Part shown: positions 29,914-48,262 of the stretch, one piece after another | Position numbering within the stretch: the stretch's first letter is position 1 | Layout: each line of letters opens with the position of its first letter | Source: Caenispirillum bisanense | GTDB lineage: Bacteria; Pseudomonadota; Alphaproteobacteria; Rhodospirillales; UBA2165 | Length of the DNA: 64,000 nucleotides | Direction: 5' to 3' | Assembly: GCA_945877815.1 (NCBI GenBank) | Contig: CAMDWJ010000001.1 | Coordinates: 62,001-126,000, forward strand | Translations under genes and position numbers: made by a program | The notes under the pieces: generated by a model | Told to the model about the DNA's origin: nothing | The model's database searches: none | What the model saw: only the letters and a program-made list of their open reading frames with translations

Positions 29914-31446
29914 ATGCGGACGCTAATTTTGTTTGTTGTTCTAGGCATTAGTTTGGTCGTCGGCACGACAGAGGTACGGGCGCAGAAGGCTCAGGATACG
30001 ATCCGCCTCGCCATCAATGATCCCTTTAACGTTCTGGACAGCTATACGGTCGGGCAGGAAGAAGCCAATACCTTCAACCGCGTGATCTATCAACACCTCA
30101 TCGCCTACGACGAATACAAAAAGAAATGGGTGCCGATACTCGCGAAGTCCTTCAAACGCATCGATCCCAAGACGCTGGAATTCGAACTCCGCGACAACGT
30201 AAAATTCCACAATGGGAATACGTTCGACGCAGCCGACGTTAAATACATGGCAGACTGGGTCACCCATCCGGAAAGCAAGGTGGTCTTTAAGGACCGTTAT
30301 AGCTGGATCAAGCAAGTCGAGGTGTTGGGCCCTCATAAGATCCGTCTGCATTCGACCGAAGCCTTTTCGACCGACCTCGGCGCGCTCGCCTATCGCTTCC
30401 GTATTTACGACAAGGAAACACACGAGGCGTTGGCGGATAAGGCCGATTATGGCCGCGCCGGTAACGGCACGGGTCCATACCGGCTCGTCTCGCTCGATCG
30501 CAACAAAGGCGTCGTGACGGAACGGATCGACAATTACTACGGTGATGAAGGTTATTTTCGCGCTCCGGTTAAACGTGTGCAAGCCATCCCCATTCCCGAC
30601 GCTCAGACCCGGGTCGCGCAATTACTGACGGGCGGCATAGATTTGATGCGTAATATTGGTCCGGATGAGGCCAAAAATCTCGCCGGCAATCCGAATTTGG
30701 GCATTACCGTGACTGATAGCGGCGTCCTGTTGTACGTGACGTTCGATGTGGTCGGGCGGTCGGCCAATAAGGTCATGACCGACGAGCGCGTGCGCAAGGC
30801 CTTCATCATGGCCATCGACACCGACCTGCTGGTCAAAAACCTCATTCCGGGGGGCGACAAGGCTCATATCGCGAAGGCGATTTGCCTGCCGTCGGTGTTC
30901 GGTTGCGCACCAACGACGGAGCCCTACAAATTCAATCCAACCGAAGCCAAGCGCCTATTGGCGGAGGCGGGCTACCCGAACGGTATGGATCTGACGCTTC
31001 ATGTGCATGGCACTGTCAGGAACATCGCCGAGGCGATTGCCGGCGAAGTGCGCAAGGTCGGCTTCCGCGCCTCGGTCGAATCGATGCCGCTTTCCGTCTA
31101 TGTCAAGAAGCGTGGCGACGGCGAGTTCACGACTTTCGTGAATACCTATCCGACCTATACCCACCCCGATATGGCCACCTTGTGGGATTTCTTCTTCAAT
31201 GGGGACCGCGATTATTGGCACGATCCATTCATCGAAAAGACCATGACCGACGGAAATCTCGAATTCGACGATGCGAAGCGGACGGCGTTGTACACGCCGG
31301 CCTTGGATCTGATCAACCGCAAGGCATATATCCTCCCGATCTCGGAGGTGCCGATGCTATGGGCGCATCAGAAGGACGTCGTCGTCATGCCCGATCTTTT
31401 GAGCGCATCGTCGCCGGTGCTCGGCGATTTTGGATGGAAGCAATAG
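29914..31446 (+). CDS. Family-5 solute-binding protein 2
   Basis: A 510-residue periplasmic binding protein. The ATG at 29914 has CGGGGAGAGA upstream and starts a signal peptide ending VRAQ, followed by KAQDTIR. Longer in-frame extensions run through the promoter gap and are rejected. The C-x6-C pair is CLPSVFGC, followed by FNPTEAKRLLAEAGYPNG, and the C-terminus is GDFGWKQ. Its 3' end overlaps the convergent truncated ThDP gene by 62 bp. The ligand is unknown; family-5 proteins bind peptides, but also opines, nickel, sugars and aromatic acids. Confidence 0.9.
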   Translation: MRTLILFVVLGISLVVGTTEVRAQKAQDTIRLAINDPFNVLDSYTVGQEEANTFNRVIYQHLIAYDEYKKKWVPILAKSFKRIDPKTLEFELRDNVKFHNGNTFDAADVKYMADWVTHPESKVVFKDRYSWIKQVEVLGPHKIRLHSTEAFSTDLGALAYRFRIYDKETHEALADKADYGRAGNGTGPYRLVSLDRNKGVVTERIDNYYGDEGYFRAPVKRVQAIPIPDAQTRVAQLLTGGIDLMRNIGPDEAKNLAGNPNLGITVTDSGVLLYVTFDVVGRSANKVMTDERVRKAFIMAIDTDLLVKNLIPGGDKAHIAKAICLPSVFGCAPTTEPYKFNPTEAKRLLAEAGYPNGMDLTLHVHGTVRNIAEAIAGEVRKVGFRASVESMPLSVYVKKRGDGEFTTFVNTYPTYTHPDMATLWDFFFNGDRDYWHDPFIEKTMTDGNLEFDDAKRTALYTPALDLINRKAYILPISEVPMLWAHQKDVVVMPDLLSASSPVLGDFGWKQ

Positions 31447-32756
31447 CGTCGCCGACTTCGTTCACGTGACCACCCGCCGCGACGATTATGTTGAGAACCG
31501 CAGGGCTGCCGTCATCGATGGCGCGCAGCCCGCGTTCGATGGCCGACGTAAGTTTCGCCGGGTCTTCGACCTTCTCGCCGTAGCCACCGACATATTCGAC
31601 GATCTTTTCGTAGGCCGCTGATGGGCTAAGGTCGACCATCGGCAGCGAATTCGCCTTCGACGCTCGTCCGCCAGGATACATGACCTCGGCCGCACTCTTT
31701 ACGGCGTACCATTGCGCGTTGTTGGAGATGAGCGTGAGCGTCGGTACATTCTCTGAGCGTTCGACGAAGTGGCAAGCCGATGGGACGTTGAACATGTAGG
31801 ATCCGTCTCCGACGAGGGAGATTACCTGGCGGTTCGGTTCGGCAAATTTGACGCCGATTGCCTCGCCGACACCCTTGCCAAGGCCGCCCGCACTTCCACC
31901 CGACGCCAGCCAGCAATTGGGCTCGTCGAGTTCGACGAACGATCCCGGAACGCCGAGTTCATTCGAAATTATGGCGTCCTTGTTTTTCACCTGATTTAGG
32001 CAGTGTGCGATCCAGGCGGGGCTGATCGGGCTTGCCGTTTTTGCCCGCTGCAGGACGCTCGCGCGCCGCGCCAATATGATACGTCGCATATCGCCGAGTT
32101 CCGCGCGCCGTTTGTCCACAAGAGTCTGCTTGCCGCGTAACTCCGTTTTCAACAGGTCGTTGAGCATGGGTATCGCGTGGGCGACGGAACCCATGATCGC
32201 CATATCCATTTCAAAACCCCGATAGGGGTAACGGGCGAAATGAGGATCGATACCGATGTGGATCAGCTTGGCATCCTTCTTCGGCCCGACGAAGCGGGGA
32301 ATCCATGGAACAGGCGATTCAAGAACAACGATCAGGTCCGCCCACACCAACATCTGCTCATTGGCAGAGCCGAAATTCATGGGATGACTGGACGGTAAAT
32401 AGGAACCAGCGCCAGGCGCACAGGCAATGGCATGGGCTTCCGCGAGAGCCGCGAGATCGAAGAAGGATTCCGTTACGTCGCCAATAATCAATGGGCGCTC
32501 GGCTGACGCGATCAATCTCGCGACTTCTGCCATGGCGTCCGTTGCAGGCATCGGGGGAAGGGCGCCCAGCGTCCGGTTGCGCGGCTCGGGTCCATTATCG
32601 ACAGCGGGATCGCCCAGAATTTCACGCGGCAAGGTAAGATAGACGGGGCCTTTCGGTTCTGTCATCGCGATATCGAGGGCGCGTCCGACGACGGTATTGA
32701 TCGGCTGCCCCGCGCGCAGCTCGTAGTCCCAGCGCGTGTACTGACGGATCATTCCG
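31385..32756 (-). pseudogene. ThDP-dependent decarboxylase paralogue, 5'-truncated
   Basis: From GMIRQYTRWDYELRAG onwards this matches the intact enzyme at 23873 (GSMLREYVKWDYELRAG), including the PP-domain motif GDGSYMFNVPSACHF ending in SNN. The first 140 or so residues, including the ThDP-activating Glu of the VPHENVA motif, are absent. Upstream of 32756 the frame stays open to 32872 but has no similarity to the family. The C-terminus is longer than in the paralogue because it reads into the binding-protein gene. Without the Pyr domain it cannot be an active ThDP enzyme. Confidence 0.86.
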
Positions 32757-32776
32757 CAACGGCTCGTAGCGCATTT

Positions 32777-33385
32777 GTGCCTCGTTTCATGGACGTGCTC
32801 GGAATTGCGCGTGCCGCTCTCGTCGGGCATTCGATCGCCGGCGGCCTGGCGCTCGGTCTCGCCTTTGCCCATCCGGAGCGGATTTCAGCCGTGGTCGTGC
32901 TCGGCAGCGGACCACTTCTACCGCCTTTGCCTGTGGCCGGCGCACATTTGAGTCCGAGGCGGGCTGGAGCAGAAACAGGCGCGCCATCGGAACCGACATT
33001 GGAAGAAACGCGCAGTGGTCTTGAAGCGATGCTTTATCATCGCGAAATTGTCACACCAGATGAGCTTGCTCTTTACCACAGCCACAGTACCGGCCGTTGC
33101 TTCGAGGCCTCCGTTTTGCGGCTGAAGAATTCGAATGGTCCAATAACCGATCCAGATTTGTGGAAGCGTTTGAGTGAAACGCCGGTGCCGCTACTTATGA
33201 TTTATGGGGCACAGGATCGGGCAGATGCCGGCGCACGCGCTCAGTTGCTGAAAAAACTGCAACCCGGACTCGATCTTCATATTGTCGAAAATTGTAAGCA
33301 TTTGGTTCAATGGGACGCCGCTGCTGACTTCCATCGACTCGCGATACCATTCTTGGTGCGAGCGCGGACGGTGTCCGCGATCTGA
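32777..33385 (+). pseudogene. Alpha/beta hydrolase gene, 5'-truncated
   Basis: The frame opens at GTG 32777 directly into the segment before the nucleophile elbow (FMDVLGIARAALVGHSIAGG). The usual first 75-90 residues, with the oxyanion-hole HG motif and first strands, are missing. The rest is intact: the lid region, acidic residue in YGAQDRADAG and catalytic His in NCKHLVQWDAA. It abuts the truncated ThDP gene head-to-head, so one deletion probably removed both 5' ends. The gap at 33386-33679 (294 bp) contains no gene that I recognise. Confidence 0.8.
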
Positions 33386-33679: not shown

Positions 33680-35212
33680 ATGAATCTGTATTCGCTACTG
33701 GCTACAATAACGATCATTCTGATTAGTGGCGCTGCCGGTGCTCAAAAAGCGAATGACACGCTGCGCATGTCGGTCAACCAGCCCATCCGATTGCTCGACT
33801 CGATACAAAACCCAAACCCTGAAGCGAGTCTGATTAGCCGCAATGTTAATGAGACGCTCTTGGCATACGACGTTACGGAGCGCCGGCTTAGCCCCCGCTT
33901 GGCGGCAGATTGGCGGATGGTGGATGAGCGAACTGCGGAGATAAAGCTGCGGCCTGGCGTCAAGTTCCATGACGGCACGCCATTTACTGCGGATGATGTT
34001 ATCTACACCTTGGAGTACGTAACCGATCCGAAAACCAATTTTCTGTTCAAGGATTCGCGTTTTGGGTGGATCGAGGCTTTTGAGAAGATTGGCGCCGATA
34101 CGGTGCGGATTCGCTCGCGCGAAGTGAAGGCAACGATTCTCACAAAATTGGTTCAAGTGCCACCCATCGTTCCGGCTCACCTCTACAAAGAAAATCCGAT
34201 GGACTTTGGGCGAGCCCCTGTTGGAACGGGCCCATTCAAGGTGTTATCCGTCGATTCCGCCAAAGGCATCGTTCTCGAGAAATTCGCTGGATACACGGAA
34301 GTTGGGATAGACCCGGCTGCGCAGGTGCGGCGTATCGAAGTGGCCTCAATTGCCGATATCCAAACCAAGATTGCCAAACTCATGGTTGGCGAACTGGATC
34401 TTGTCTTCGATCTCGACGCCGATACGGCGCAAAGCTTAGTAAATCATCCGACGTTGAAATTAACATCGTCGCCAACTTTATCTTTTAGTTACATAGCGTT
34501 AGATGCGGCGGATCGTTCAGGTATCAAAGTATTGAAAGATAAGCGCGTCCGAGAGGCGCTATTTCGCGCGATCGATCGCGATAAACTTCGCGCCGCCTTA
34601 TTGTCGAAGGAAATGGCCGACAAACCGGCACAGGAAGCAATGTGCCACCCGTCCCTGATCGGATGCTCGTGGTCGCAAAAACCGGTTTCCTACGATCCGG
34701 CGCGGGCAAAGGCTTTGCTTGTCGAGGCAGGATTTGCGGACGGGTTCGATCTGGAAATCTCAACCTGGGGACAGCCAAGGAGGGCTGCCGAGGCTGTGGC
34801 GGGTGAACTACGGAAGATTGGAGTGCGCGCTACGATCTCGAACCAAACGGCGAACGTATTCCAGAAGAACCGAGGCGACGGAAAGGTGCAGGCGATGATT
34901 GTTCTGTGGGACAATGCCGCCGGCCAGCCGGATGTCGAGTCGACATCAAATTTTTTCTTCGCGGATAGTTCGCGTAATTATAACGCGGACCAAGACCTTA
35001 TTCGTTGGGATCGTGAAGGATCCATCACCCAGGATCTGCGCGCCCGCGAAGACATTTATCGGAAGCTCTTCGACAAGGTGACCGAAGAGCGTTACGCGAT
35101 GCCTTTGGTCGAACTTCCGGCGGTTATAGCCCATGACAAAGATCTTCTGCTTATGGGCGGAAATGGCCGTCCCGAGGGGTTCAACCTAAACCGTGTGGCA
35201 TGGAAGAAATAA
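33680..35212 (+). CDS. Family-5 solute-binding protein 3
   Basis: A 510-residue exported protein with a signal peptide ending AGAQ, then KANDTLRMSVNQPIRLLD. The lobe motif FHDGTPFTADDVIYTLEYV is typical of the family. The C-x6-C pair is CHPSLIGC, followed by YDPARAKALLVEAGFADG; the C-terminus is NRVAWKK. GGGAGA at 33670-33675 precedes the ATG. No permease or ATPase gene flanks it. It is the most diverged of the five intact copies by eye, with an FFFADSSRNY segment where others have FFFxGxRDY. Confidence 0.9.
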   Translation: MNLYSLLATITIILISGAAGAQKANDTLRMSVNQPIRLLDSIQNPNPEASLISRNVNETLLAYDVTERRLSPRLAADWRMVDERTAEIKLRPGVKFHDGTPFTADDVIYTLEYVTDPKTNFLFKDSRFGWIEAFEKIGADTVRIRSREVKATILTKLVQVPPIVPAHLYKENPMDFGRAPVGTGPFKVLSVDSAKGIVLEKFAGYTEVGIDPAAQVRRIEVASIADIQTKIAKLMVGELDLVFDLDADTAQSLVNHPTLKLTSSPTLSFSYIALDAADRSGIKVLKDKRVREALFRAIDRDKLRAALLSKEMADKPAQEAMCHPSLIGCSWSQKPVSYDPARAKALLVEAGFADGFDLEISTWGQPRRAAEAVAGELRKIGVRATISNQTANVFQKNRGDGKVQAMIVLWDNAAGQPDVESTSNFFFADSSRNYNADQDLIRWDREGSITQDLRAREDIYRKLFDKVTEERYAMPLVELPAVIAHDKDLLLMGGNGRPEGFNLNRVAWKK

Positions 35213-35316: not shown

Positions 35317-36906
35317 TCAGGTGCGGCCGGACACTTTTTCTATAAGTCCGCCGGCATCGGCGGGCGTCGCATCGCCGGTCCAGACGACGTATTGATCGGG
35401 GCGCACCAATATGAGGCGCGTTTCGTACTCCTCCCTGCCGTCGGCATAGCTGTCGCGCACGACCTTGAGCGGCACGTTCTTCGCCGCCGCAGTGCGTTCC
35501 AAGGCGCTAACCGCCGCATCGTCCGCGCCCAGGGCGACCAAGGTGAATTCCGGCCCCAGCTCCTCATACAGATTTCGGCCCGAGGAGAGAGCCATTGGGG
35601 CTAGGTGATGGCCGGCGCGCGCCTTGACCATATGCTGGCCATGCGCGCTGCAAACTGCCCCTTCCGGGCCCATCACAATGGCGGACCCTTCGTAGTTTGG
35701 CTCATAGGTCGGTGCGCGGAAGCCCAAACCTTTGACCCATTCCCCCCACGCGCGGTCGAAGGCTTCCTTGTTCTCGTCCGGGGCGATGCCTTCGAGGAAC
35801 TCTCGGTCCATATTGACGCGGGTGGCGATGAAATCTTCGCCGGTTTCCTTGAACACCGGGCGGCGTTCCTCGGAATAAGAATCGATCAGCTTGTCGCCGC
35901 CCCATCCCTTTATTCGCGCGGCAAGCTTCCAGCCAAGATTGACGGCATCCTCTAGACCGCTGTTAAGGCCGAATCCACCGTAAGGCGGATGGCTATGGGC
36001 GGCGTCACCAGCGATGAAGACGCGTCCGGCTTGATAGTTCTCGGCGACCGCGACACGCATCTGCCAATAGCCGATGTGGTCGAATTCTGCCGCGAAACGG
36101 CAGCCTGCGGCGTCTTCGACCAAGGCATGGACGGCAGCTATGTCCATGTGCGCGTCCGAGTTCGCGGGCGAATGAAAGAACCAGCTTTCCTCGGCGTCCA
36201 CGCGGCCGAAAAACTGCCAGTAACCCTTAAGGTGTGGTTGCATGGCCCGATAGGTCGACGATTGCGGCATTTTCGCGACCAATGCCCGATGCAGCTCCTT
36301 GGATCGAAAGACGGCCAGCACCATGCGCTGCTCGAAATCTGACCCCGACTGTTCAATGCCGATCTGCCGGCGAATGACCGAATGCGCACCGTCGCAGGCG
36401 ACCATATAATCGCAGTCAAGGATCTGCCGACTGCCATCGTCGCTCGATACGGTCAGACGTACGCCGGAAGTGTCCTGCTCGACCGATTCTCCGGTCCACC
36501 CATACATCGTCGTCACGCTCGGCAGTTCGGCCATCTTGGCACGCAGGACGCGTTCGGTTTCGTATTGCGGTAGACGTTCCGGCAACTGGAAATAAAATTT
36601 CCGAGGATTGCCGCGCTGTTGTGCCAACGCGCTGCGATACTCGCTCATCAGATTGCCGTAGGTCGTCATCATCCCAGCATCGTAATTGCGCGGCGTTGTC
36701 CGTGCGGCGCGCAACTCGTCGACAATGCCCCAGAAATAGAAATGCTCGAGCGTGCGCGACGTGAGGTTCTGCCCCTTGGGCACCGGGGAAAGGCTCCGCC
36801 GACGTTCGACGACCGCGCAGTCGATGCCGCGTTCGCCAAGCTCAATGGCGAGCGCCACGCCGACGGGCCCGCCACCGACGACGACAACTTGATAGCGTTT
36901 GGACAT
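35317..36906 (-). CDS. FAD-dependent aromatic hydroxylase (MhpA/PheA/TfdB type)
   Basis: A 529-residue flavoprotein monooxygenase (FAD_binding_3). The Rossmann GxGxxG is VVVGGGPVGVALAIELGERG near the N-terminus, the DG motif is YMVACDGAHSVIRR, the GD motif is VFIAGDAAHSHPPYGGFGLN, and a thioredoxin-like C-terminal domain follows (LVRPDQYVVWTG). Relatives hydroxylate 3-(3-hydroxyphenyl)propionate, phenols and similar rings using NAD(P)H. ATG 36906 lies 11 bp after the binding-protein stop; an in-frame TTG at 36927 is less likely. It is the last gene of the six-gene catabolic operon. Confidence 0.91.
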   Translation of the reverse strand: MSKRYQVVVVGGGPVGVALAIELGERGIDCAVVERRRSLSPVPKGQNLTSRTLEHFYFWGIVDELRAARTTPRNYDAGMMTTYGNLMSEYRSALAQQRGNPRKFYFQLPERLPQYETERVLRAKMAELPSVTTMYGWTGESVEQDTSGVRLTVSSDDGSRQILDCDYMVACDGAHSVIRRQIGIEQSGSDFEQRMVLAVFRSKELHRALVAKMPQSSTYRAMQPHLKGYWQFFGRVDAEESWFFHSPANSDAHMDIAAVHALVEDAAGCRFAAEFDHIGYWQMRVAVAENYQAGRVFIAGDAAHSHPPYGGFGLNSGLEDAVNLGWKLAARIKGWGGDKLIDSYSEERRPVFKETGEDFIATRVNMDREFLEGIAPDENKEAFDRAWGEWVKGLGFRAPTYEPNYEGSAIVMGPEGAVCSAHGQHMVKARAGHHLAPMALSSGRNLYEELGPEFTLVALGADDAAVSALERTAAAKNVPLKVVRDSYADGREEYETRLILVRPDQYVVWTGDATPADAGGLIEKVSGRT

Positions 36907-36917
36907 GGACGTGAGCT

Positions 36918-38453
36918 TCACTTCCAACCGAATTCGTGTGGATGGACCTGGCCTGCGCGAAGGCCCGTCGCGATCAGCTTGATTTCCTTGCTGTGGGTGA
37001 AGATCACCCGCGTTGGCAGCATCGGGAAAAGATAGGCATTGTCGTGCGCATAGTCCATGAGCCGAGCGACCGCTTTACGGCGTTCACCGTCGTCCATGAG
37101 CGTCGACGAGGTCTCGGCCATTTTCACCAGTTCCGGATCGTCGTACTCCTTGCTGAGGAAATGGCGTACGAGCTGCCCTGTAACCCCGAACATGCTCCCG
37201 CCGCTCCAGCCATAATAGCTGATATCGACCTTGCCCTGACTGAGAAGTTGGACGCGTTGCGCGACGGGATGTGTGCGCACATTGGCGCGGATTCCCACCG
37301 CGCGCAGCATGCCCACAACTGCAGTTGCTTCAGTAATGTTGTTTGGAAAGGTGCTGAGCGTGACGTCGAACCCGTCCTGATAACCCGCCTCGGCGAGCAG
37401 CTTCTTGGCGCCGACGAGGTCGTAGGCGGGTACCATCTTGGTGTAGCCGCAGCCGAGCTGTTCCTTCGAACATAATCCTTCGACCGCACCAATGCTTTTT
37501 GAAATCTCTCCGTATTCGGCCTCGACGACCACGGGACGGTTAATCGCCTTGATAATCGCCTGTCTGACACGGATGTCTCCGAGTGCCTTGACGTTCTCCG
37601 AGCCCTTCGTCGGGAAGCCGATGAAGGAATAACCAAGCGCTGGTGGCGACAATGTGAATTCGAACCGACCGCTGTCACGCAGGGCAACAGCCTGATCACC
37701 CGGCAGGTCGCGCGCCAGATCCGTGTCCCCGCGCAGCAATTTGGCGATCAAAGTACCTTGGTCCAAGACCGGCTCCGCCGTGATGCGGCCGATTGGGGCC
37801 GCGAATTTTTGCGGCTTGGGACTGAAATTGATATTCCTCTCGGCTACGATACCCGTATTCTTGTCGATCTTGACGATACGAAGCGGGCCGGACCCGATCG
37901 GCCGCTTGCCGAAATCGCCTTTGTCGGCGAGCGGCTCGTGCAAATGCTTGGGAAAGATCGGCGTACTCGTCGCCAGCGTCAGCAGGCCCTCCGGCTGCGG
38001 CAATTTCGACGTGACGCGAACCTTAAGCGGACCGAGTTTCTCGACCGATGCGACCCAGTTCCAATTCGCCTTGTAGCGGAGATTGACACTCGGATCGATG
38101 AGATAGTTCAGGGTATAAACTACGTCGTTGGCGTCGAGTATTTGACCATCTTGCCATTTCAGATCGTCATAGAGTTCGAATTCATAGGTGGTCGATGTGG
38201 GTTGCGACCAGTTTTTCGCCAGCATCGGAACGAAGGCGACCTTGTTCGGATCGAACATCACGAGATTGTCGAAGACCGCCGGCGACCATTCGCTGCTGAA
38301 CACGCCGCCCGCAACGAGGTAGGGATCCAATTCCGCGGCCGCTTCGGCGAGCGGATACCGCAGCGTATCTTTGGCTTTCTGGGCCAATGCGGGCTGCACG
38401 ACGCACAAGGCTGTAAAACCGACAACGGCAGCGGTGATATTCGTGTATTTCAT
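36918..38453 (-). CDS. Family-5 solute-binding protein 4 (in catabolic operon)
   Basis: A 511-residue exported protein: signal peptide ending ALAQ, then KAKDTLRYPLAEA. It carries WQDGQILDANDVVYTLNYL, a C-x6-C pair CSKEQLGC and the end HEFGWK. It is very similar to the copy at 45280 (both have SGPLRIV then DKNTGIV, and GYSFIGFPTKG versus SYYFIGFPATG). It is embedded in an operon: 25 bp after the amidohydrolase and 11 bp before the FAD hydroxylase. The ligand is therefore probably the pathway substrate. Confidence 0.91.
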   Translation of the reverse strand: MKYTNITAAVVGFTALCVVQPALAQKAKDTLRYPLAEAAAELDPYLVAGGVFSSEWSPAVFDNLVMFDPNKVAFVPMLAKNWSQPTSTTYEFELYDDLKWQDGQILDANDVVYTLNYLIDPSVNLRYKANWNWVASVEKLGPLKVRVTSKLPQPEGLLTLATSTPIFPKHLHEPLADKGDFGKRPIGSGPLRIVKIDKNTGIVAERNINFSPKPQKFAAPIGRITAEPVLDQGTLIAKLLRGDTDLARDLPGDQAVALRDSGRFEFTLSPPALGYSFIGFPTKGSENVKALGDIRVRQAIIKAINRPVVVEAEYGEISKSIGAVEGLCSKEQLGCGYTKMVPAYDLVGAKKLLAEAGYQDGFDVTLSTFPNNITEATAVVGMLRAVGIRANVRTHPVAQRVQLLSQGKVDISYYGWSGGSMFGVTGQLVRHFLSKEYDDPELVKMAETSSTLMDDGERRKAVARLMDYAHDNAYLFPMLPTRVIFTHSKEIKLIATGLRAGQVHPHEFGWK

Positions 38454-38478
38454 GAAGAAATTCCGGCCGTTCCGAAAA

Positions 38479-39480
38479 TCACGATAAATTCAGATGCGTG
38501 AATATTTTGCGGGCATTGCCCTCGAATATTTTCTTGCGATCGTCGTCCGTTAACCATTCGATACTTTCGATAACCGGTTTCAGATCGTCGCCCGGACGTC
38601 CGGTGTGCGGATTGATCGATGAGCCTGAGCCCGGCGTGTCTGTCCCGAACAGGCAATTGTCGACCCCCACGATTTTGATCAGAAGTTCGATCGGTTCCTT
38701 CGCGTAGAGCACCGTATCGAAATAGAATTTGCGCATCCGATCATCGAAGGTTTCGTCTTCGCGCGACTTATGGCGGCTGTACACGCGGCTAAGTCGGAAC
38801 CGCCCGGCCTGATAGGGCAACGAACCGCCGCCATGCGCCACGATCAGCTTCAGATTTGGAAAGTTTGAAAAGACCGGCGATCGCAAGATGGACAGCGCCG
38901 CGATGCTTTCCTCGGTGATGAAATGCTCGCCCTGCGTCTCACGCCCATTGTTGACGTTCCCGGTATGGATCATCCCGGGAACGTCCAATTGCACCATCTT
39001 TTCGTAGAGCGGATACCAATATTCATCGCCCATGGCCGGAACCGTGCCCGCACCTTCGCTCGGATCGGGATTGATCATGCAGCCGACGAAGCCGAGTTCC
39101 TTTACGCAGCGTTCGAGTTCCTCCACGCAGTTGGCGGGAGAAACGCTCACCGATTGCGGCAATCCCGCCATGCCGCGGAAACGCGTGGGATGCGCCTTGA
39201 CCTGACGCGCGATGAAATCGTTGGAAGCTTCGGCCATCCAACGAACGAGTTTTTCGTTCGTCTCGGCATGCGGCAGCCCCCAAGGGCGCGGCGGCGTCAG
39301 TTGTAGATCGATCTCATAATCATCCATCATCTTAAGATGACGTTTCAGCGAATTTTCCATCGCCTCGTCGCTGATGGTCGGCGCTCCCTTGCCGAACTCG
39401 CCGCGATTGACCATCAGTTTATAGTTATAGCCATAGAGCGCGTCGGGCGCGGTCGTATGGGCATGGCTGTCGATGATCAT
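38479..39480 (-). CDS. Amidohydrolase-family (ACMSD-like) decarboxylase or hydrolase
   Basis: A 333-residue TIM-barrel enzyme of the Amidohydro_2 family. The first metal site is DSHAHT at 4-9, a later metal His is in LIVAHGGGSLPYQAGR, and the catalytic Asp is in CLFGTDTPG. The family includes 2-amino-3-carboxymuconate-semialdehyde decarboxylase, resorcylate decarboxylases and 4-oxalomesaconate hydratases, all acting in aromatic degradation. GGAGA precedes the ATG at 39480; the longer frame to 39705 lies in the upstream gene. Whether it decarboxylates or hydrates a ring-cleavage product cannot be decided. Confidence 0.88.
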   Translation of the reverse strand: MIIDSHAHTTAPDALYGYNYKLMVNRGEFGKGAPTISDEAMENSLKRHLKMMDDYEIDLQLTPPRPWGLPHAETNEKLVRWMAEASNDFIARQVKAHPTRFRGMAGLPQSVSVSPANCVEELERCVKELGFVGCMINPDPSEGAGTVPAMGDEYWYPLYEKMVQLDVPGMIHTGNVNNGRETQGEHFITEESIAALSILRSPVFSNFPNLKLIVAHGGGSLPYQAGRFRLSRVYSRHKSREDETFDDRMRKFYFDTVLYAKEPIELLIKIVGVDNCLFGTDTPGSGSSINPHTGRPGDDLKPVIESIEWLTDDDRKKIFEGNARKIFTHLNLS

Positions 39481-39494
39481 ATTGTCTCCATCCG

Positions 39495-40559
39495 TCAGGC
39501 TTGCACGATGCCCAGCTTGCCGTTCTGCCAGACGCCGAGGTAGAGCATACTCTCGGGCAATCCGGTTTCGTTGAATTTGAGTTTGCCGCAAACGGTCGTG
39601 AATGTTTCGCGCAGGATCGCCCCGCGCAACGCTTCCGCGTTCCAGGTGACGGTTGAGGCGGCTGCCTGAGCCAGAACTTCGCCACAGGCGTACCCGCCCG
39701 CGCAATGGAACTCCGCCGCTTCGCCGAAGGCTGCCTGATAATCATCCGCGAACTTCCGCGAGCGCGGATCGGGAATCTCGGGCGCCCAGGTGATCCGCAT
39801 GTGAACACCCTGATTGGCGGGGCCGAGCTTGTTATCCGAAGCTACGGGAAAATCGGAATGCCAGATCGTGTTGCCGGCAATCCCCGCTTCGTGCGCTGCC
39901 TTCAGGCACGAGACGCGCGGATCGTCGTTGCGCCCGTGATCGAGCCCGATCAGAAGGGCCTCTGCCCCCGAGGCCTTCACACGGGCCATCAGGGCCGCAT
40001 AGTCGTAGGGTTCGGCGCCGATCTTCTCGTCGAACACGATGTCGATACCGAGAGGCGCGGCGTAGTGTCGGATCCCACGCGCGACGGATTGGCCGATGCG
40101 GCCGTCGGTATAGACCAGCGCCGTCGTCGACTTCTTGCCGGCAATCAGGTTCAGATAGGGTTTCGCATAGTCGAAGTCCGAGCCTGGCCAGCAGAGGAAC
40201 TGCCATTTGAGTTCCTTTTGAAAATCCGCATACGAGCCATGTGTGCCCTGCAACAGCAGTGCATGCGAGGCCTCGGCAATCGGTGTCACCGCGCCCATGA
40301 GCGCCGTGTGGCACGGCCCCAGCAGTACATCGAGGCCGTTCTCGTCAATTAGGCGACGGTAGTTGGCCGCTGCCTTTTCGGGATTGCTTTCGTCGTCGTA
40401 GGTGACGAGACGGACGGGCTTGCCGAGAATGCCGCCCCGAGCGTTCACGTCCTTCACCCACAACGCATAGGCGTTGGCGTACCAAGGCGCTCCCCGTTCC
40501 GCGAAGCGACCGGTCAGCGACAGACTGCATCCGAGCGTGATTTCGTCCGTGTTCTTCAC
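39495..40559 (-). CDS. LivJ/AmiC-type (periplasmic-binding-protein type I) ligand-binding protein, no signal peptide
   Basis: A 354-residue branched-chain amino-acid/amide-binding-fold protein (EITLGCSLSLTGRFAERG, VNARGGILGKPVRLVTYDDESNP, LLGPCHTALMGAVTPIAEA). It starts at GTG 40559, 11 bp after the cyclodeaminase stop, and goes straight into the first beta strand. No signal sequence is possible without reading back through the upstream gene. It could be a cytosolic ligand sensor like AmiC, or an exported protein that lost its leader. No liv-type permease lies nearby. Confidence 0.84.
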   Translation of the reverse strand: MKNTDEITLGCSLSLTGRFAERGAPWYANAYALWVKDVNARGGILGKPVRLVTYDDESNPEKAAANYRRLIDENGLDVLLGPCHTALMGAVTPIAEASHALLLQGTHGSYADFQKELKWQFLCWPGSDFDYAKPYLNLIAGKKSTTALVYTDGRIGQSVARGIRHYAAPLGIDIVFDEKIGAEPYDYAALMARVKASGAEALLIGLDHGRNDDPRVSCLKAAHEAGIAGNTIWHSDFPVASDNKLGPANQGVHMRITWAPEIPDPRSRKFADDYQAAFGEAAEFHCAGGYACGEVLAQAAASTVTWNAEALRGAILRETFTTVCGKLKFNETGLPESMLYLGVWQNGKLGIVQA

Positions 40560-40570
40560 CTTGTTGGACC

Positions 40571-41530
40571 TTACATCGGCAGCTTGACGCCGACGCCGCG
40601 CTCGCGCGCTTTTTGCAGGACGAAGGCGGCGACAGCAACGTCTTCGGCGCCCACGCCGATGGTATCGACGATGGTAATCGCATCCTCGAACGGGCGGCCC
40701 TTGACGCGGCCCGAGACTATATCGTGCATCTCGCGCACCGATTTCCATTTCAGGGCGCGGTTGTGCGCGGCGTAGATCAACTCGCCGCATTCCGCCATGG
40801 ATTGTTCCAAATTCTCGACCGCGATCAGATCGGCGCGCCTGACTGCTTCAAGATCCAATTCGCGCCGGAACAGCGATGTGGCGCCGATGGCGCAGATATG
40901 TTGGCCCGGCTGCAACCATTCGCCGAATAGAACTGGATCGTCCGCAGCCGAGACGGTGATGATGATGTCGGCGTCCTCGACGGCCGACTTCGCATCCTCG
41001 CACGGGATCACTTCGATGCCGTGACGCTCCTGTACATCCTTAGCGAACGAGGCGCGGTTTTCGGCCGTACGGCTCCAGCATTTAATGCGCTTGATCGCGC
41101 GGACCGACTTCATCGCGGCGATTTGCCCACGCGCCTCGCGTCCGGTGCCGATAATACCGATATTGGCGGCGTCCTTGCGCGCCATATGGTTGGCACCGAC
41201 AGCGGACACGGACGCCGTGCGAATTTCGCCCAAATCCTTGGCGTCCATAATCGCATCCAAGCTGCCGTCCTTAGTGTTGTAGAGCAGTACGAGATAACGC
41301 ACGCCGATCGGGCCGGGGACACGGCCGTAGGTCTTCAAGCCATAAGCGCCAAAACCATAGGCGCCGCCGACCTTGGTCCGATGGAAGCCTTTCGGCAGAT
41401 TAAGCGACGTTGTTGGGAAGTTTTCGGCATCGCCTTCCGCCTCGTGGCGGAATAGGTCGTCGATGACTTTGACACAATCCTCGTAACTCAAGAGGCTGCG
41501 CACGTCGTTGTTGCTGAGATAGATCGTCAT
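40571..41530 (-). CDS. Ornithine cyclodeaminase / mu-crystallin family protein
   Basis: A 319-residue NAD(P)-dependent enzyme with the family's substrate region (ARKDAANIGI preceded by TASVSAVGANHMA) and Rossmann loop IGTGREARGQIAAM. The C-terminal part runs IYAAHNRALKWKSVREMHDIV. The family includes ornithine cyclodeaminase, ketimine reductases and alanine dehydrogenases. In an aromatic operon it may reduce or deaminate an imine intermediate, which would hint at a nitrogen-containing substrate. AGAGGGGGA precedes ATG 41530. It lies 49 bp after the extradiol dioxygenase gene. Confidence 0.89.
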   Translation of the reverse strand: MTIYLSNNDVRSLLSYEDCVKVIDDLFRHEAEGDAENFPTTSLNLPKGFHRTKVGGAYGFGAYGLKTYGRVPGPIGVRYLVLLYNTKDGSLDAIMDAKDLGEIRTASVSAVGANHMARKDAANIGIIGTGREARGQIAAMKSVRAIKRIKCWSRTAENRASFAKDVQERHGIEVIPCEDAKSAVEDADIIITVSAADDPVLFGEWLQPGQHICAIGATSLFRRELDLEAVRRADLIAVENLEQSMAECGELIYAAHNRALKWKSVREMHDIVSGRVKGRPFEDAITIVDTIGVGAEDVAVAAFVLQKARERGVGVKLPM

Positions 41531-41579
41531 ATTTGTCCCCCTCTTGATCCGAACAGTATTTCTGCCGGATTGAATTTCA

Positions 41580-42551
41580 TTAGTTCCAGGTCGCAAACCC
41601 CATCGCGCAACCAGTGCCCGCGCGCGTGCGATAGCAGGGCACATAACGGGTCTCGGTCATCTCCAGATGTTCTACGGCGCCGGCAGTCGCAATCCATAAA
41701 TTCGACTCGGACGTACCCGCCTGCATCCGCTTCTTTGGAAGTCCATAGATCGTCTTTGTATCCAGATCCTTCATCGCCTTGAGCATGATCCGGTCCAACT
41801 CTTCATCGATCGTGAAGTGGCTGAGCCCGCCCGACGCCACCACGCCGACGCGAATGTCCTTGGGCCAATCTGCGATCGCGGCTCCGACCGCACGGCCAAG
41901 TTCATAGCAGCGCTTCGAACTCGGCTGATTGGGCGCGAAATAGGTATTGATCCAAATCGGAATCGTCGGGATATGATTGTCGCCCAAGATACGCCGATGC
42001 ACGAAGGCGAACGGATGGCTGATGCTGCGCCCTGCCTCGATGCGATTTGATTGACTGACATCGATGTCATTCGCACACAGATGCTCGATGATGTGACGGC
42101 CGAGATCGCCGACCGCCGGGATCGTGCGCGGCTGTTCCCAGGAATAGGCGGGCAGGGCGCTTAGGCGACCTTCGCCCCGAATGATCGGAAACTCGTTCCC
42201 CCAGAAGACGCTGAAGGTCGGCAGAAGCTCTTCGAGGAACAATTCCTTCTGGTCGTCACCGAACATCACCAAGACATCGGGACGGGCTTTTTCGATCACA
42301 TCGGTCAACCAAGCGAGATTTGACTGACATTCGTCGTAACGCGCCCGGAATTTATCGATCGTCACTTCCTTGTCGATGGCCGGCGTCGCGCGCGCTTCCA
42401 ATTCCTCGAAACTGATCCGTTCCCCCGACGGAACGTTGTAAAGCTCGAACCCGGGACGGCTGAATCGATCCGCGCCTTCGGGCCATTTTTCGGGTAGCGT
42501 CGAAAGCTGCGGGCTGTGCGACGTGCCGATGCCGAGTACGATCTTTGCCAT
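41580..42551 (-). CDS. Class III (LigB-type) extradiol ring-cleavage dioxygenase
   Basis: A 323-residue catalytic subunit in the LigB superfamily. Iron-ligand histidine candidates are His12 (GTSHSPQL) and the later DDQKELF and SHPFAFVHRR region; SGGLSHF carries the conserved catalytic His. Such enzymes open catechol-type rings using Fe(II) and O2, as in protocatechuate 4,5-cleavage. No separate LigA-type small subunit gene is visible. GGAAG precedes ATG 42551. It is the first gene of the operon downstream of the LysR gene, after a 243-bp gap with no recognisable gene. Confidence 0.89.
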   Translation of the reverse strand: MAKIVLGIGTSHSPQLSTLPEKWPEGADRFSRPGFELYNVPSGERISFEELEARATPAIDKEVTIDKFRARYDECQSNLAWLTDVIEKARPDVLVMFGDDQKELFLEELLPTFSVFWGNEFPIIRGEGRLSALPAYSWEQPRTIPAVGDLGRHIIEHLCANDIDVSQSNRIEAGRSISHPFAFVHRRILGDNHIPTIPIWINTYFAPNQPSSKRCYELGRAVGAAIADWPKDIRVGVVASGGLSHFTIDEELDRIMLKAMKDLDTKTIYGLPKKRMQAGTSESNLWIATAGAVEHLEMTETRYVPCYRTRAGTGCAMGFATWN

Positions 42552-42794: not shown

Positions 42795-43715
42795 TCAATC
42801 CATCAGTGAGTGACATCCGGAAAAATGTTTTTGCGTGATTACATTTTTTACTTCTTCTTTCGTTATATCAATTACCGCTGAAAGGGCTTGAGACTGACGC
42901 CATGTTCGCTTTGCGATCAGAGTGCGGAGCAGATCAAGCCCAGTTATTTTTATCAAAATAAAATCGTTGATGTCGTTGGGGAAAGCCGATCGCGTCAATA
43001 AAGCGTAAGCGAGTCTTCGTCTTACAAAATCCTTTACGGTAGCTTGAGTATTGGTCTCGTAATGGACGTCGAGGACGGCGTGTGTCTTGGCAATAACCTT
43101 ATCGATGGCTTTACGTGGCCCGGTCAATTTCGGATAGGTTACAAGAGGAAAATGTTGCAACGACGTCGTTTTGATAGGCCCCTTGGGAAGTGCTCGGTCT
43201 CCTTGCAGGCCCACCAAATATAAGGCCTCGGAAAACAAAGGTATGATCTCGATGTCGTCTTGATGATCGGGGTCGATCATAAATGCGCAGTCGATCTCAT
43301 TCTTTTCGAGGCCGGCCAGCATGTCGTAAGAATGCCCCTCACTGAACTTGATTTTTATCGAAGAATGGGCGGCCTGTGCACGTTGTGCGATAGGCGCAAA
43401 AAAATGTTGCCCGACGCCAGGAGCGGCGCCGATACAAACAGTCCCGGTAATCTTGATGCTGTCGCCGGCCAGATGTTCGATAAGCCTGTTGGCTCGCCGT
43501 AGCATGTCCTCCGCATAGGCAACGAGTCTTTGTCCCTTTTGGGTCAGTGTCATGCCCGTTGGATGCCGCTCAAACAGTGCGCTACCGATTTCTTGTTCAA
43601 ACGAATTAAGCAATCGGGATAGAGCCGGCTGGGTGATATTCAGCCTTCGAGCAGCTTTGTTGAGGCTTCCGCTGTCGGCTATCTCAAGAAAAAATTTTAG
43701 CTGCCGCAGTTCCAT
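42795..43715 (-). CDS. LysR-family transcriptional regulator of the catabolic cluster
   Basis: A 306-residue regulator. The N-terminus MELRQLKFFLEIADSGSLNKAARRL with TQPALSRLLNSFEQEIG is the winged-helix domain; the effector-binding domain starts near residue 90. ATG 43715 fits the family start, and the 35-residue extension of the open frame is rejected. It stands between the minus-strand ring-cleavage operon and the plus-strand Rieske block, with a LysR-type palindrome in its upstream gap, so it probably controls one or both. Confidence 0.91.
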   Translation of the reverse strand: MELRQLKFFLEIADSGSLNKAARRLNITQPALSRLLNSFEQEIGSALFERHPTGMTLTQKGQRLVAYAEDMLRRANRLIEHLAGDSIKITGTVCIGAAPGVGQHFFAPIAQRAQAAHSSIKIKFSEGHSYDMLAGLEKNEIDCAFMIDPDHQDDIEIIPLFSEALYLVGLQGDRALPKGPIKTTSLQHFPLVTYPKLTGPRKAIDKVIAKTHAVLDVHYETNTQATVKDFVRRRLAYALLTRSAFPNDINDFILIKITGLDLLRTLIAKRTWRQSQALSAVIDITKEEVKNVITQKHFSGCHSLMD

Positions 43716-43849: not shown

Positions 43850-45124
43850 ATGCTCGCGATGGCTCAAAATGACCTGCTCACGCAGACCGGGCCCGGCACT
43901 CCCGGCGGCAAGTTGCTTCGCAGCTATTGGCAGCCGATCTCGACTGTTGAGGAAATGCCCGTCGGCGGCGCCCCTTTGCCGATCAAGATTCTAAGCGAAG
44001 ATCTGGTGCTGTTTCGCGACGACAAAGATCGCCTGGGCCTGATCGGGCTGCACTGTCCGCATCGCGCGACCGACCTATCTTATGGCCGTGTCGAGAATGG
44101 CGGCCTGCGCTGCCTCTATCACGGTTGGCTATTCGACATTAACGGGCAATGCATCGATCAGCCGGCAGAGCCTGAGGACAAAAAATTCTGTCACAAGGTA
44201 CGCCATACTTCGTACCAAGTGAAAGAATATGGCGGCGTGATCTGGACTTACATGGGCGAAGGCGATGCCCCGCAAATCCCCGCCTTCCAGTTCCTGTCTG
44301 CGGCACCCGAGAACCGGCTGGCCTTCCGCGTTATCCAAGACTGCAACTGGTTGCAGGGGTTGGAAAGCTCGACCGATCCGTCGCACACCTCATATCTTCA
44401 TCGCATGGGCCCGGGGCCGGGCGACGAGCGCTCTGGCGCTGATGCGCGGCTATTCAGTGAAGATACCCGCCCGCGGCTCGCTATTGAAAGTACGAGCTAT
44501 GGCTGTCGCATCTATGCAATGCGTAAGATGGCGACGGGCGAAAATTACCTTCGCGTAAACAATTATATTTATCCGTGCGGCACCACGCCGGTCACCGAAC
44601 TTCCGGGTGTCGCTGGCTACCAGGGCCGTTGGTACGTGCCGCGCGACGACAAGAGCCATACCCGTTTCGAGTTCTTCTACAAATCGCGAGTACTCGACAA
44701 GGATGCGATCCGTGCGATCCGCGATCAGAATGTCGGACCTGACAATCGCCACATTCGCAATGCCGCCAACCGCTACTTGCAGGATCGCGACGAACAGAAA
44801 CGCGACGATTCTTTCTGCGGTATGGGTCGCTACATCCCCGCGCACGATGCCTTCGCCATCGAAACACAGGGCCAGATCCAGGACCGCACCCAGGAACATC
44901 TGGGTTCGACCGACGTCGTCATCATCGAGGTCCGCAAGGCTCTGCTTGGCGCGATCAAGCATATGCAGGACGGCAATGATGCGCCGGGCCTGTTGCGCGA
45001 TATCCGCGAGAACAATTTTCCGGACTTCATCTGTGCTTCGGATTACATTCCTGACGGCGAGGATGGGCCGGCATATTGCAAGCGGATGCTCGGCCAAGGA
45101 CAAAACAAAGTGGCGGCGGAATAG
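43850..45124 (+). CDS. Rieske non-haem iron oxygenase, alpha subunit (phthalate-dioxygenase type), copy 1
   Basis: A 424-residue oxygenase component. The Rieske [2Fe-2S] ligands are Cys69, His71, Cys88 and His91 (CPHRATDL and CLYHGW). The mononuclear iron motif is DPSHTSYLH in the catalytic domain. The overall form is that of the phthalate 4,5-dioxygenase/vanillate demethylase family, which dihydroxylates or O-demethylates aromatic acids. GGAGG precedes the ATG. No reductase or ferredoxin gene is adjacent. A closely similar copy follows at 46970 with a binding-protein gene between. Confidence 0.92.
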   Translation: MLAMAQNDLLTQTGPGTPGGKLLRSYWQPISTVEEMPVGGAPLPIKILSEDLVLFRDDKDRLGLIGLHCPHRATDLSYGRVENGGLRCLYHGWLFDINGQCIDQPAEPEDKKFCHKVRHTSYQVKEYGGVIWTYMGEGDAPQIPAFQFLSAAPENRLAFRVIQDCNWLQGLESSTDPSHTSYLHRMGPGPGDERSGADARLFSEDTRPRLAIESTSYGCRIYAMRKMATGENYLRVNNYIYPCGTTPVTELPGVAGYQGRWYVPRDDKSHTRFEFFYKSRVLDKDAIRAIRDQNVGPDNRHIRNAANRYLQDRDEQKRDDSFCGMGRYIPAHDAFAIETQGQIQDRTQEHLGSTDVVIIEVRKALLGAIKHMQDGNDAPGLLRDIRENNFPDFICASDYIPDGEDGPAYCKRMLGQGQNKVAAE

Positions 45125-45279
45125 AAGTTAAGCGGTCGTTCCCGCACTTTGGCTTGCTTTGCATGTGAAAACGCTCGAAGGGAAATCCGGTCTTGCAATC
45201 TAAGGCCCCATTGCTCGGCTGACGGCGCTCAACGGCGTGGTGAGGCGGCGGTGACGAGCTAAAAACGACAGGGATTACA

Positions 45280-46809
45280 ATGATGAACTTAAAACGGCTT
45301 CTTGCTTTCGTTCTGTTCGCCATGGGCCTTGCCTTGCCCGCACTGGCGCAGAAGTCGAAGGACACTTTGCGCTTCCCAGTGTTCGATCCGGATGCCGGGA
45401 TCGACACCTACACCATGCCCAGTTCCTTCGCCAACGTCTGGGGTCCATCGGCTTATGACATGCTGCTGGCCTTCGATCCTCAAAAGGGCAGCTTCGTCGG
45501 CCATATTGCCAAATCTTACAAACAGCTCGATCCGGTTACCTATGATTTCGAGATCCGCGACGATTTGAAATGGCACGATGGGCAGAAACTCACTGCCGAC
45601 GATATCGTCTATACGCTGAACTACCTCACCGATCCGAAAGTGACTCTCCGCTACAAGGCCTATTGGCAGTGGATCAAATCGGTTGAGAAAATCGGCCCGC
45701 ATACGGTGCGCGTCGTCGCCAAAATCGTCGCACCCGATAGCTTGATGTATCTCGCCATGCGTACGCCGATGTATCCGAAGCACGCGCATGAACCGCCCGT
45801 CAACAAGATCGACTTCGCAACCAAGCCGGTCGGCTCAGGCCCGCTTCGTATTGTCCAGATGGACAAGAATACCGGCATCGTCGGCGAGAAATACAAAGAT
45901 TACGTTCCAAGCTCAGTGAAAGCGGCGTCCGGCGTCGGACGTGTCGTTTCCCAGCCGATCAAGGATCATGGCACGCTGACGGCAACACTGATGGTGCAAG
46001 GCGCCGATGTGGCAACCGATCTGCCGCCCGATCAGGCGGACGCGCTTGTTAAGAGCGGCAATTTCGAAACGACCCTTGGGCCGCCTAGCACCAGTTATTA
46101 CTTCATCGGCTTTCCGGCGACCGGCTGGGCCAACAACAAGGCACTCGCCGATGTCCGCGTGCGCCGCGCGATTCTGATGGCGATTGACCGCCCGGCGCTG
46201 GTCAAAATTAAGTACGGGCCGCTTGCCAAGGGTATCGAGCCGGAAGAAGGGCTGTGCTCCAAGAGTCAGCTCGGCTGCGGCTTCACCAAGCCAGCCTATC
46301 CCTACGATCCGGCGGGTGCGAAGAAGCTGTTGGCAGAAGCGGGTTATGCGGACGGCTTCGATGTCGTGATCAGTTGCTTTCCAATCGCTTTCACCGAGGC
46401 CCAGGCGGTCTCAGGAATGTTGCGCGCGGTCGGTATTCGCGCCAACGTGCGCACGCACCCGACGGCGCAACGCCAGCAGCTCATCAGCGATGGCAAGGTC
46501 GAGATCGGCAATTACGGCTGGTCGGGCGGCGGCATGTTCGACGTCGCCGGGCAACTTGGCCGCCATGTCGAAAGCAACGATTATGGCGATCCCGAATTGG
46601 CGAAGCTCGCCGAAGTGGTGCCGACGATCATGGATGACAAGCTGCGGCGCGCCGCCGCCGCCAAGGTCTTCGATCGCATCACCGAGATGGCCTATGCCGA
46701 GCCGACCGATCCGAACCGACCGGTGTTCGTGCATACGAAAGAGGTCGTTCTAAATGCGCGCACGATCCGCGCCGAACAGGTCAATCCGCATGAATTCGGA
46801 TGGAAGTGA
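45280..46809 (+). CDS. Family-5 solute-binding protein 5 (between two Rieske genes)
   Basis: A 509-residue exported protein, signal peptide ending ALAQ, then KSKDTLRFPVFDP. It has WHDGQKLTADDIVYTLNYL, the C-x6-C pair CSKSQLGC, YDPAGAKKLLAEAGYADG and the end VNPHEFGWK. It is the closest relative of the copy at 36918 and of the wrecked copy at 26322. It is placed 155 bp after Rieske copy 1 and 160 bp before copy 2, all on the plus strand, so co-expression is likely. Confidence 0.91.
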   Translation: MMNLKRLLAFVLFAMGLALPALAQKSKDTLRFPVFDPDAGIDTYTMPSSFANVWGPSAYDMLLAFDPQKGSFVGHIAKSYKQLDPVTYDFEIRDDLKWHDGQKLTADDIVYTLNYLTDPKVTLRYKAYWQWIKSVEKIGPHTVRVVAKIVAPDSLMYLAMRTPMYPKHAHEPPVNKIDFATKPVGSGPLRIVQMDKNTGIVGEKYKDYVPSSVKAASGVGRVVSQPIKDHGTLTATLMVQGADVATDLPPDQADALVKSGNFETTLGPPSTSYYFIGFPATGWANNKALADVRVRRAILMAIDRPALVKIKYGPLAKGIEPEEGLCSKSQLGCGFTKPAYPYDPAGAKKLLAEAGYADGFDVVISCFPIAFTEAQAVSGMLRAVGIRANVRTHPTAQRQQLISDGKVEIGNYGWSGGGMFDVAGQLGRHVESNDYGDPELAKLAEVVPTIMDDKLRRAAAAKVFDRITEMAYAEPTDPNRPVFVHTKEVVLNARTIRAEQVNPHEFGWK

Positions 46810-46969: not shown

Positions 46970-48262
46970 ATGCTATCTAAACAGCAGAACGATCTGATCA
47001 CGCAAACCGGTCCCGGCACACCCGGTGGCAAATTGCTGCGCAGCTATTGGCAGCCGGTCGCCACGATCGAGGAAATGCCGATCGGCGGCGCACCCATGCC
47101 GATCCGCATCCTGAGCGAGGATCTTGTGCTCTTCCGTGACGACAAGGATCGTCTCGGCCTGATCGGCCTGCACTGCCCGCACCGCGCGACCGATCTTTCC
47201 TATGGCCGCGTCGAGAATGGTGGGCTGCGTTGCCTTTATCACGGCTGGCTCTTCGATATAAACGGCCAATGCATCGATCAGCCCGCCGAGCCCGAGGACA
47301 AGAAGTTCTGCCACAAGGTGCGCCACACCGCTTATTCGGTGCAAGAATACGGTGGCGTGATCTGGACCTATATGGGCGAAGGCGAGGCGCCGCTCATCCC
47401 GGCCTATCAGTTCCTCGATTGTCCGGAAGAGAACCGCATCGCCTTCCGCCTCATCCAGGAATGCAATTGGGTGCAGGGCCTCGAAAGTTCAATTGATCCA
47501 TCGCACACGTCCTATCTGCATCGTATGGCGCCGCTGAAAAGCCCGGCCGATGCCCAACTGGCCGGCAATCCCTATTACGCCGAGGACACCAATCCCCGCC
47601 TCGACATCGAACATGTCAGCTACGGCGTGCGCATCCATGCGCTGCGCAAGGTAAGCGGCGGCAAAGGGTATCTGCGCGTCAACAACTACATTTATCCGGG
47701 CGGCACCACGCCCGCGAGCAGCGAGCCGCCGCCGGTCAGCGGTTACGGCGGACGCTGGTACGTTCCACGCGACGATTACAGTCATACCCGCTTCGAGTTC
47801 ATCTACAAGCACGGCACGCCGGTCGATAAAGCGGCAGTGACGCGGACCAAGCAGCAGCATGTCGGTCCGGACAAGCGCCATGTCCGTCGCGTCGAGAACC
47901 GCTACATGCAGGATCGCGAGGAACAGAAACGCGACGACACATTCTGTGGGCTCGGACGCTACATCCCGGCGCACGATACCTTCGCAATCGAAACCCAGGG
48001 CGCAATCCAGGACCGCACCCAAGAGCATTTGGGTTCGACCGACGTCGTGATCATCGAGATGCGCAAGGCGCTGCTCAGTGCCATCAAGCAGATGCAGGAG
48101 GGCAAGGAAGCCCCCGGCCTGTTGCGCGATCCCAAGCAGAACCAGTTCCCGGACTTTATCTGTATCTCGGATTTCGTGCGCGACGGCGAGGACGGACCCG
48201 CCTATTGCAAGCGTGTGCTCGGCAGCAGTCCCGGTGGACCGACGAAAGCCGCCGCAGAATAG
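46970..48262 (+). CDS. Rieske non-haem iron oxygenase, alpha subunit (phthalate-dioxygenase type), copy 2
   Basis: A 430-residue paralogue of the oxygenase at 43850. The N-terminal 130 residues are almost identical (same CPHRATDL and CLYHGW Rieske ligands), and the iron motif DPSHTSYLH is conserved. The middle (residues about 185-260) is more diverged (MAPLKSPADAQLAGNPYYAED versus MGPGPGDERSGADARLFSED), where substrate-contacting loops are expected. It probably acts on a related substrate. A hairpin follows the stop. Confidence 0.92.
   Translation: MLSKQQNDLITQTGPGTPGGKLLRSYWQPVATIEEMPIGGAPMPIRILSEDLVLFRDDKDRLGLIGLHCPHRATDLSYGRVENGGLRCLYHGWLFDINGQCIDQPAEPEDKKFCHKVRHTAYSVQEYGGVIWTYMGEGEAPLIPAYQFLDCPEENRIAFRLIQECNWVQGLESSIDPSHTSYLHRMAPLKSPADAQLAGNPYYAEDTNPRLDIEHVSYGVRIHALRKVSGGKGYLRVNNYIYPGGTTPASSEPPPVSGYGGRWYVPRDDYSHTRFEFIYKHGTPVDKAAVTRTKQQHVGPDKRHVRRVENRYMQDREEQKRDDTFCGLGRYIPAHDTFAIETQGAIQDRTQEHLGSTDVVIIEMRKALLSAIKQMQEGKEAPGLLRDPKQNQFPDFICISDFVRDGEDGPAYCKRVLGSSPGGPTKAAAE

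Follow-up and report, generated by a model that had tools for sequence, protein, structure and literature searches.

A putative six-gene aromatic ring-cleavage operon of Caenispirillum bisanense containing an ornithine-cyclodeaminase-family gene and a leaderless LivJ-fold protein

The closest described system to the locus reported here is the LigZ–LigY pair (with LigX) of the 5,5'-dehydrodivanillate (DDVA) pathway in Sphingobium sp. SYK-6, in which a ring-cleavage dioxygenase is accompanied by LigY, a zinc C–C hydrolase that acts once the ring has been opened. The same dioxygenase fold is used in the degradation of gallate (DesB) and in protocatechuate 4,5-cleavage (LigAB, LigJ, LigK); the canonical LigAB iron site is a 2-His-1-carboxylate arrangement of His12, His61 and Glu242, and LigJ belongs to the amidohydrolase superfamily that is also represented in our locus. 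A further point of comparison is AmiC, the cytosolic amide receptor of Pseudomonas aeruginosa, which is a leaderless protein with a type-I binding fold encoded in a catabolic operon. The genes of the DDVA pathway are listed in PMC12997858. Closest to our locus by relationship of both its dioxygenase and its amidohydrolase are uncharacterised plasmid clusters of Rhodococcus koreensis and Bradyrhizobium, in which genes for these two enzymes occur with a Rid-family gene and two RraA genes.

We analysed a 64,000-nucleotide stretch of Caenispirillum bisanense DNA (hereafter the window). Six intact open reading frames on its minus strand, from 42551 to 35317, and their immediate neighbours are as follows:

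41580..42551, minus strand: LIGB, class III (LigB-superfamily) extradiol dioxygenase of the 'DDQ' subfamily (PF02900, AlphaFold model, alignment)
40571..41530, minus strand: OCD, NAD(P)-dependent enzyme of the ornithine-cyclodeaminase/mu-crystallin family (PF02423, solved relatives)
39495..40559, minus strand: LIVJ, leaderless protein with a type-I periplasmic-binding-protein fold, predicted to be cytosolic (PF13458, no signal peptide, model)
38479..39480, minus strand: AMH, LigY-side amidohydrolase, probable Zn-dependent C–C hydrolase (or hydratase) (solved relatives, tree)
36918..38453, minus strand: SBP5a, family-5 periplasmic solute-binding protein with a signal peptide (PF00496, hydrophobic leader)
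35317..36906, minus strand: FAD, group A flavoprotein aromatic hydroxylase, RebC-like (FAD_binding_3, Rng_hyd_C)
42795..43715, minus strand: LysR-type regulator (HTH_1, LysR_substrate)
43850..45124, plus strand: Rieske oxygenase of the LigXa_C/phthalate-dioxygenase type (PF19301 LigXa_C 4.6e-32, Rieske)
45280..46809, plus strand: second family-5 solute-binding protein (SBP5), between two Rieske genes
46970..48262, plus strand: second LigXa-type Rieske oxygenase

The gaps between the six genes are 49, 11, 14, 25 and 11 bp, exactly as given in the initial annotation of this DNA, and co-transcription is proposed from this spacing. Start codons read from the DNA were ATG at 42551 (LIGB), ~41530 (OCD), 39480 (AMH), 38453 (SBP5a) and ~36906 (FAD), and GTG at ~40559 (LIVJ). 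The family assignments of the initial annotation were confirmed by Pfam, with scores far above cut-off for LigB (65 bits versus 26.3), OCD_Mu_crystall (200 versus 24), Peripla_BP_6 (165 versus 31.7), Amidohydro_2 (161 versus 26.4), SBP_bac_5 (189 versus 32.4) and FAD_binding_3 (243 versus 22). Scanning the region for promoters and terminators gave no more matches than shuffled sequence did, and an Rfam search of it returned nothing useful. The LysR-type gene is on the same strand as LIGB, 243 bp upstream of it, and diverges from the Rieske gene that starts at 43850 rather than from the operon; its product is likely to regulate the operon, this Rieske gene or both. The closest solved structure to the product of that Rieske gene is a phthalate-dioxygenase-type Rieske protein (1.6e-66), and the enzyme is a possible companion of the operon, as a demethylase or hydroxylase. 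Elsewhere in the window (31385-32872), the reading frame of a TPP-dependent enzyme has no match to the N-terminal TPP domain and may be truncated or have a wrongly assigned start.

We give roughly even chances to the reading that the operon encodes a LigZ/LigY-type pathway of meta-cleavage followed by C–C hydrolysis for a phenol, together with a branch that handles imines and a ligand sensor in the cytosol. SBP5a would capture the substrate in the periplasm and pass it on to an Opp/Dpp-type permease that is shared with other systems and encoded at another site. The phenol would then be converted to a catechol by the FAD enzyme, or by a neighbouring LigXa-type Rieske oxygenase through hydroxylation or demethylation, after which LIGB would open the ring adjacent to the diol and the LigY-like AMH would cut a C–C bond of the ring-opened product, or hydrate it. 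OCD may reduce or oxidise an imine/enamine or an alpha-keto/amino-acid intermediate, in the place held by a Rid-type imine hydrolase in the sister clusters, and LIVJ would bind a pathway compound in the cytosol. With the LigZ–LigY system the operon shares the ring-cleavage dioxygenase and the LigY-type amidohydrolase, and LigXa-type Rieske genes are neighbours in the window; by comparison with that system it adds the FAD hydroxylase, the OCD-family enzyme, the leaderless LIVJ and SBP5a. Hydroxylation and ring opening, two of the steps attributed to the operon by the initial annotation, are supported. However, the operon encodes no downstream hydratase or aldolase, and this counts against a LigZ/LigY-type reading, as do Gln101 in LIGB, an Asp in AMH, the lack of an AmiR-like partner, the absence of OCD-family genes next to LIGB in the other clusters read and moderate tree supports, all described below.

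Both its Pfam match and its fold place LIGB in the class III LigB superfamily. The AlphaFold model (pLDDT 86.9) had DesB as its top fold match (Z 31.6, 2.2 Å over 253 residues), with LigAB at Z 30.4 and the 2-aminophenol dioxygenases of the same fold superfamily weaker at Z ~24; the absence of other folds from the match list was not counted as evidence. The canonical iron site is incomplete in LIGB: His12 and Glu282 are conserved but Gln101, within a GDDQ motif characteristic of the subfamily, occupies the position of LigAB His61. This Gln was found in 10 of 11 subfamily relatives from the same genome, the exception (L013) having His, and in all five aligned plasmid relatives. Because Gln101 replaces a His ligand, we filed LIGB in a divergent subfamily of the LigB superfamily rather than as a canonical LigAB-type enzyme. 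His12, His179, His245 and Glu282 were invariant in the alignment; His179 and His245 correspond to the acid-base residues His124 and His192 of DesB, an equivalence drawn by alignment only. Enzymatic activity is assumed for the DDQ subfamily as a whole. No paper on a Gln substitution at a class III iron-ligand position was found in the literature searched, and a PHROGs search with LIGB returned nothing. Eleven further DDQ-type LIGB paralogues (L009-L019) are present in the same genome, on contigs C27, C2, C5, C6, C71, C52, C1, C83 and C16.

The solved relatives of AMH are LigY (E 2.6e-83), LigJ (1.5e-64) and gamma-resorcylate decarboxylase (4e-27). AMH has 42% identity to LigY and falls in a separate group, which on the LigY side of the tree joins it with proteins of Rhodococcus koreensis, Bradyrhizobium and pNL1 (support 88/94), with LigJ apart (100/100). 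By sequence AMH is thus nearer to LigY than it is to LigJ or the decarboxylases, and a decarboxylase function, which the initial annotation had credited to the operon, was rejected on sequence distance and on this grouping. LigY and LigJ carry a metal-ligand Glu in an LFGSE motif, whereas AMH has LFGTD, with an Asp that is known at this position from other amidohydrolase-2 enzymes; because of this replacement we call AMH LigY-like and not a LigY. Its relationships suggest that AMH is probably a Zn-dependent C–C hydrolase (or hydratase).

LIGB grouped with genes from Rhodococcus koreensis and Bradyrhizobium (support 81/83), the same partners as in the AMH tree, although both key groupings have moderate support. 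Since the two trees agree, LIGB and AMH probably travelled as a pair. Genes of the two types adjoin, or are no more than a few kb apart, in the plasmids that match best (Rhodococcus koreensis, Aminobacter, Bradyrhizobium and Polymorphobacter). In Polymorphobacter the neighbour of a DDQ-type LIGB is an AMH-type protein with 70% identity to LigY; this hints, but does not prove, that LigZ too belongs to the DDQ type.

These relationships also bear on a gallate- or protocatechuate-type route, in which LIGB would open a polyhydroxy benzoate to an oxalomesaconate-like acid, AMH would act as a LigJ-like hydratase and RraA-type aldolases would be supplied from elsewhere in the genome. We consider this route unlikely. 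DesB heads the fold matches of LIGB, LigJ comes second only to LigY among the solved relatives of AMH, and RraA/CHA-aldolase genes are present in the sister clusters; however, AMH lies on the LigY side with LigJ firmly apart, the operon has neither RraA nor another aldolase gene, and the OCD-family gene would be left unexplained. The RraA-like genes of this genome are only on contigs C12 and C43. LIGB differs from the dioxygenases of these pathways in its Gln for a His iron ligand.

A LigZ/LigY-type pathway in turn has to accommodate OCD. Its membership of the family is clear from the 200-bit PF02423 match and a dinucleotide-binding motif (GTGREARG), and among solved structures it is most closely related to an archaeal alanine dehydrogenase and a pyrroline-2-carboxylate reductase (E ~1e-36). 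Loss of the substrate Arg was considered and dropped, as an Arg was found aligned in the comparison with alanine dehydrogenase 1omo. Comparison with the curated subtypes EutC, AlaDH, BhcD, LhpI and SbnB gave scores below the NCBIfam equivalog cut-off in every case. OCD is probably an imine reductase or dehydrogenase. The initial annotation had regarded a cyclodeaminase-family member as unexpected in an aromatic pathway, and indeed no paper in the literature searched reports an extradiol dioxygenase together with an ornithine cyclodeaminase. Nor did any of the other clusters read have an OCD-family gene next to LIGB; the nearest case is a gene in the same genome ~4 kb from a LIGB gene (locus L011, contig C5; 35% identity). 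At L011:3016-6206 a leaderless SBP_bac_11 protein adjoins OCD-family and FAD_binding_2 genes, a second pairing of OCD with a leaderless binding fold.

In the sister LIGB/AMH clusters of Rhodococcus and Bradyrhizobium, and with amidohydrolases of the pNL1 type, these genes adjoin or are accompanied by a gene for a Rid-family protein whose PAR motif is conserved, whereas the window operon has no Rid or RraA gene and has OCD in that place, as well as LIVJ. Since Rid proteins with this motif occur in the sister clusters, imine/enamine chemistry gains independent support. The hint of a nitrogen-containing or heteroaromatic substrate in the initial annotation is somewhat strengthened by these Rid neighbours, but the OCD family also takes in amino-acid dehydrogenases and OCD reached no equivalog cut-off, so that a nitrogen-bearing substrate is plausible but unproven.

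In its fullest form this idea has LIGB cleaving an aminophenol-type ring (of an aminophenol, aminobenzoate or N-heteroaromatic) and OCD reducing the resulting imine. The OCD fold with its imine- and amino-acid-dehydrogenase relatives, the Rid neighbours and the presence of 2-aminophenol dioxygenases in the fold superfamily of LIGB all speak for it. Nevertheless, those dioxygenases are much weaker matches than the top one (Z ~24 versus 31), the presence of an OCD or a Rid protein is no proof that the starting compound contains nitrogen, and the operon has no deaminase or amide hydrolase; we place little weight on this scheme.

The control element proposed for the LigZ/LigY-type pathway is LIVJ, which has neither a signal peptide nor an accompanying permease. 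No leader can be added upstream because the DNA there lies within the OCD gene, and the missing signal peptide speaks against classing it as a periplasmic protein. The nearest relatives of LIVJ (32% and 27% identical) carry leaders, among those checked with a readable start, and permease genes follow LIVJ relatives in loci L126, L128 and L129. The LIVJ model, built with three sequences, is of moderate quality (pLDDT 74.8) and clearly of the type-I fold, its matches being LivJ-type proteins with AmiC among them. LIVJ thus shares with AmiC a type-I binding-protein fold without a signal peptide and a place in a catabolic operon; the two are ~16% identical. However, the operon encodes no AmiR-type partner, and the one regulator close by is of the LysR type; for this reason LIVJ may be said to work like an AmiC but not to be one. 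These features suggest that it is most likely a cytosolic ligand sensor acting in the AmiC manner. Leaderless proteins resembling NMT1/phosphonate-binding proteins were seen at L014:3974-4969 (beside LIGB, contig C52) and L027:2334-3323, both of which we take to resemble 4,5-dihydroxyphthalate decarboxylases, and a similar one lies near LIGB in Diaphorobacter.

The same gene order was sought in other genomes, as the initial annotation had proposed, and the full set was not found by an OCD-based scan of genome contigs, via LIVJ in 297 genomes of the order (best match 27% identity) and 398 of the phylum (32%), via OCD in 385 genomes of the class, or via LIGB in 24 genomes of the family, one of them of the same genus. 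These searches covered samples of genomes, in which absence is not proof; the set is therefore rare or lineage-specific. The literature searched likewise gave no match to a described pathway, in agreement with the initial annotation; the parts are known and their combination is new among the genomes sampled and literature searched. The more specific proposal, a LigZ/LigY-type pathway in which Rid has been replaced by an OCD-family imine reductase, with control by a cytosolic LivJ-fold receptor and a dioxygenase of the Gln-for-His subfamily, is put forward tentatively and is in our view rather unlikely as a whole. If true, the locus would represent a biaryl/phenol meta-cleavage variant that combines imine chemistry with an unusual receptor in the cytosol. 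It would further draw attention to class III dioxygenases carrying Gln at an iron-ligand position, a large and apparently uncharacterised group, and to the extreme multiplication, in one bacterial genus, of orphan family-5 receptors linked with aromatic oxygenases.

The FAD enzyme matches Rng_hyd_C besides FAD_binding_3, is related to RebC (E 1.4e-56) and has intact GxGxxG, DG and GD motifs. Its relatives lie near solute-binding-protein genes of several kinds, once beside an SBP5 gene with Opp permeases. A loose cluster, in which genes of the SBP5, Rieske, LIGB and FAD types have been reshuffled across the genome and the six genes have no common substrate, would fit the scatter of SBP5 and DDQ-type LIGB genes beside varied partners, the occurrence of FAD relatives in unrelated clusters and the absence of the full set from other sampled genomes, but is improbable given the very tight same-strand spacing (11-49 bp) and the concordant LIGB and AMH trees.

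SBP5a itself has a hydrophobic leader and no adjoining permease. It is 56% identical to the SBP5 at 45280-46809 and ~53% identical to those encoded beside Rieske genes on contig C52; a plasmid search with SBP5a at E 1e-60 found nothing. The genome (4.0 Mb) has ~84 SBP_bac_5 genes versus only three OppC_N matches, a count that misses OppC-type permeases without an OppC_N match. A genus-mate was similar (96 versus 93 first-look candidates of family-5 receptors), with 2 to 20 in other genera of the family. Escherichia coli MG1655 has nine family-5 receptor genes (PMC9602780). SBP_bac_5 genes lie in the window at 28207-29667, 29983-31389, 33680-35212, 36918-38453 and 45280-46809, together with an SBP5 gene fragment with an in-frame stop (26304-26588), apparently a decayed copy. 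LigXa-type Rieske and SBP5 genes alternate in tandem in the window (43850-48262) and at L014 (contig C52:1-14000), where a LIGB gene is also present, and at L015:4925-10850 (contig C1, same genome) LIGB, Rieske, SBP5, Rid and PhoD genes form a run on one strand.
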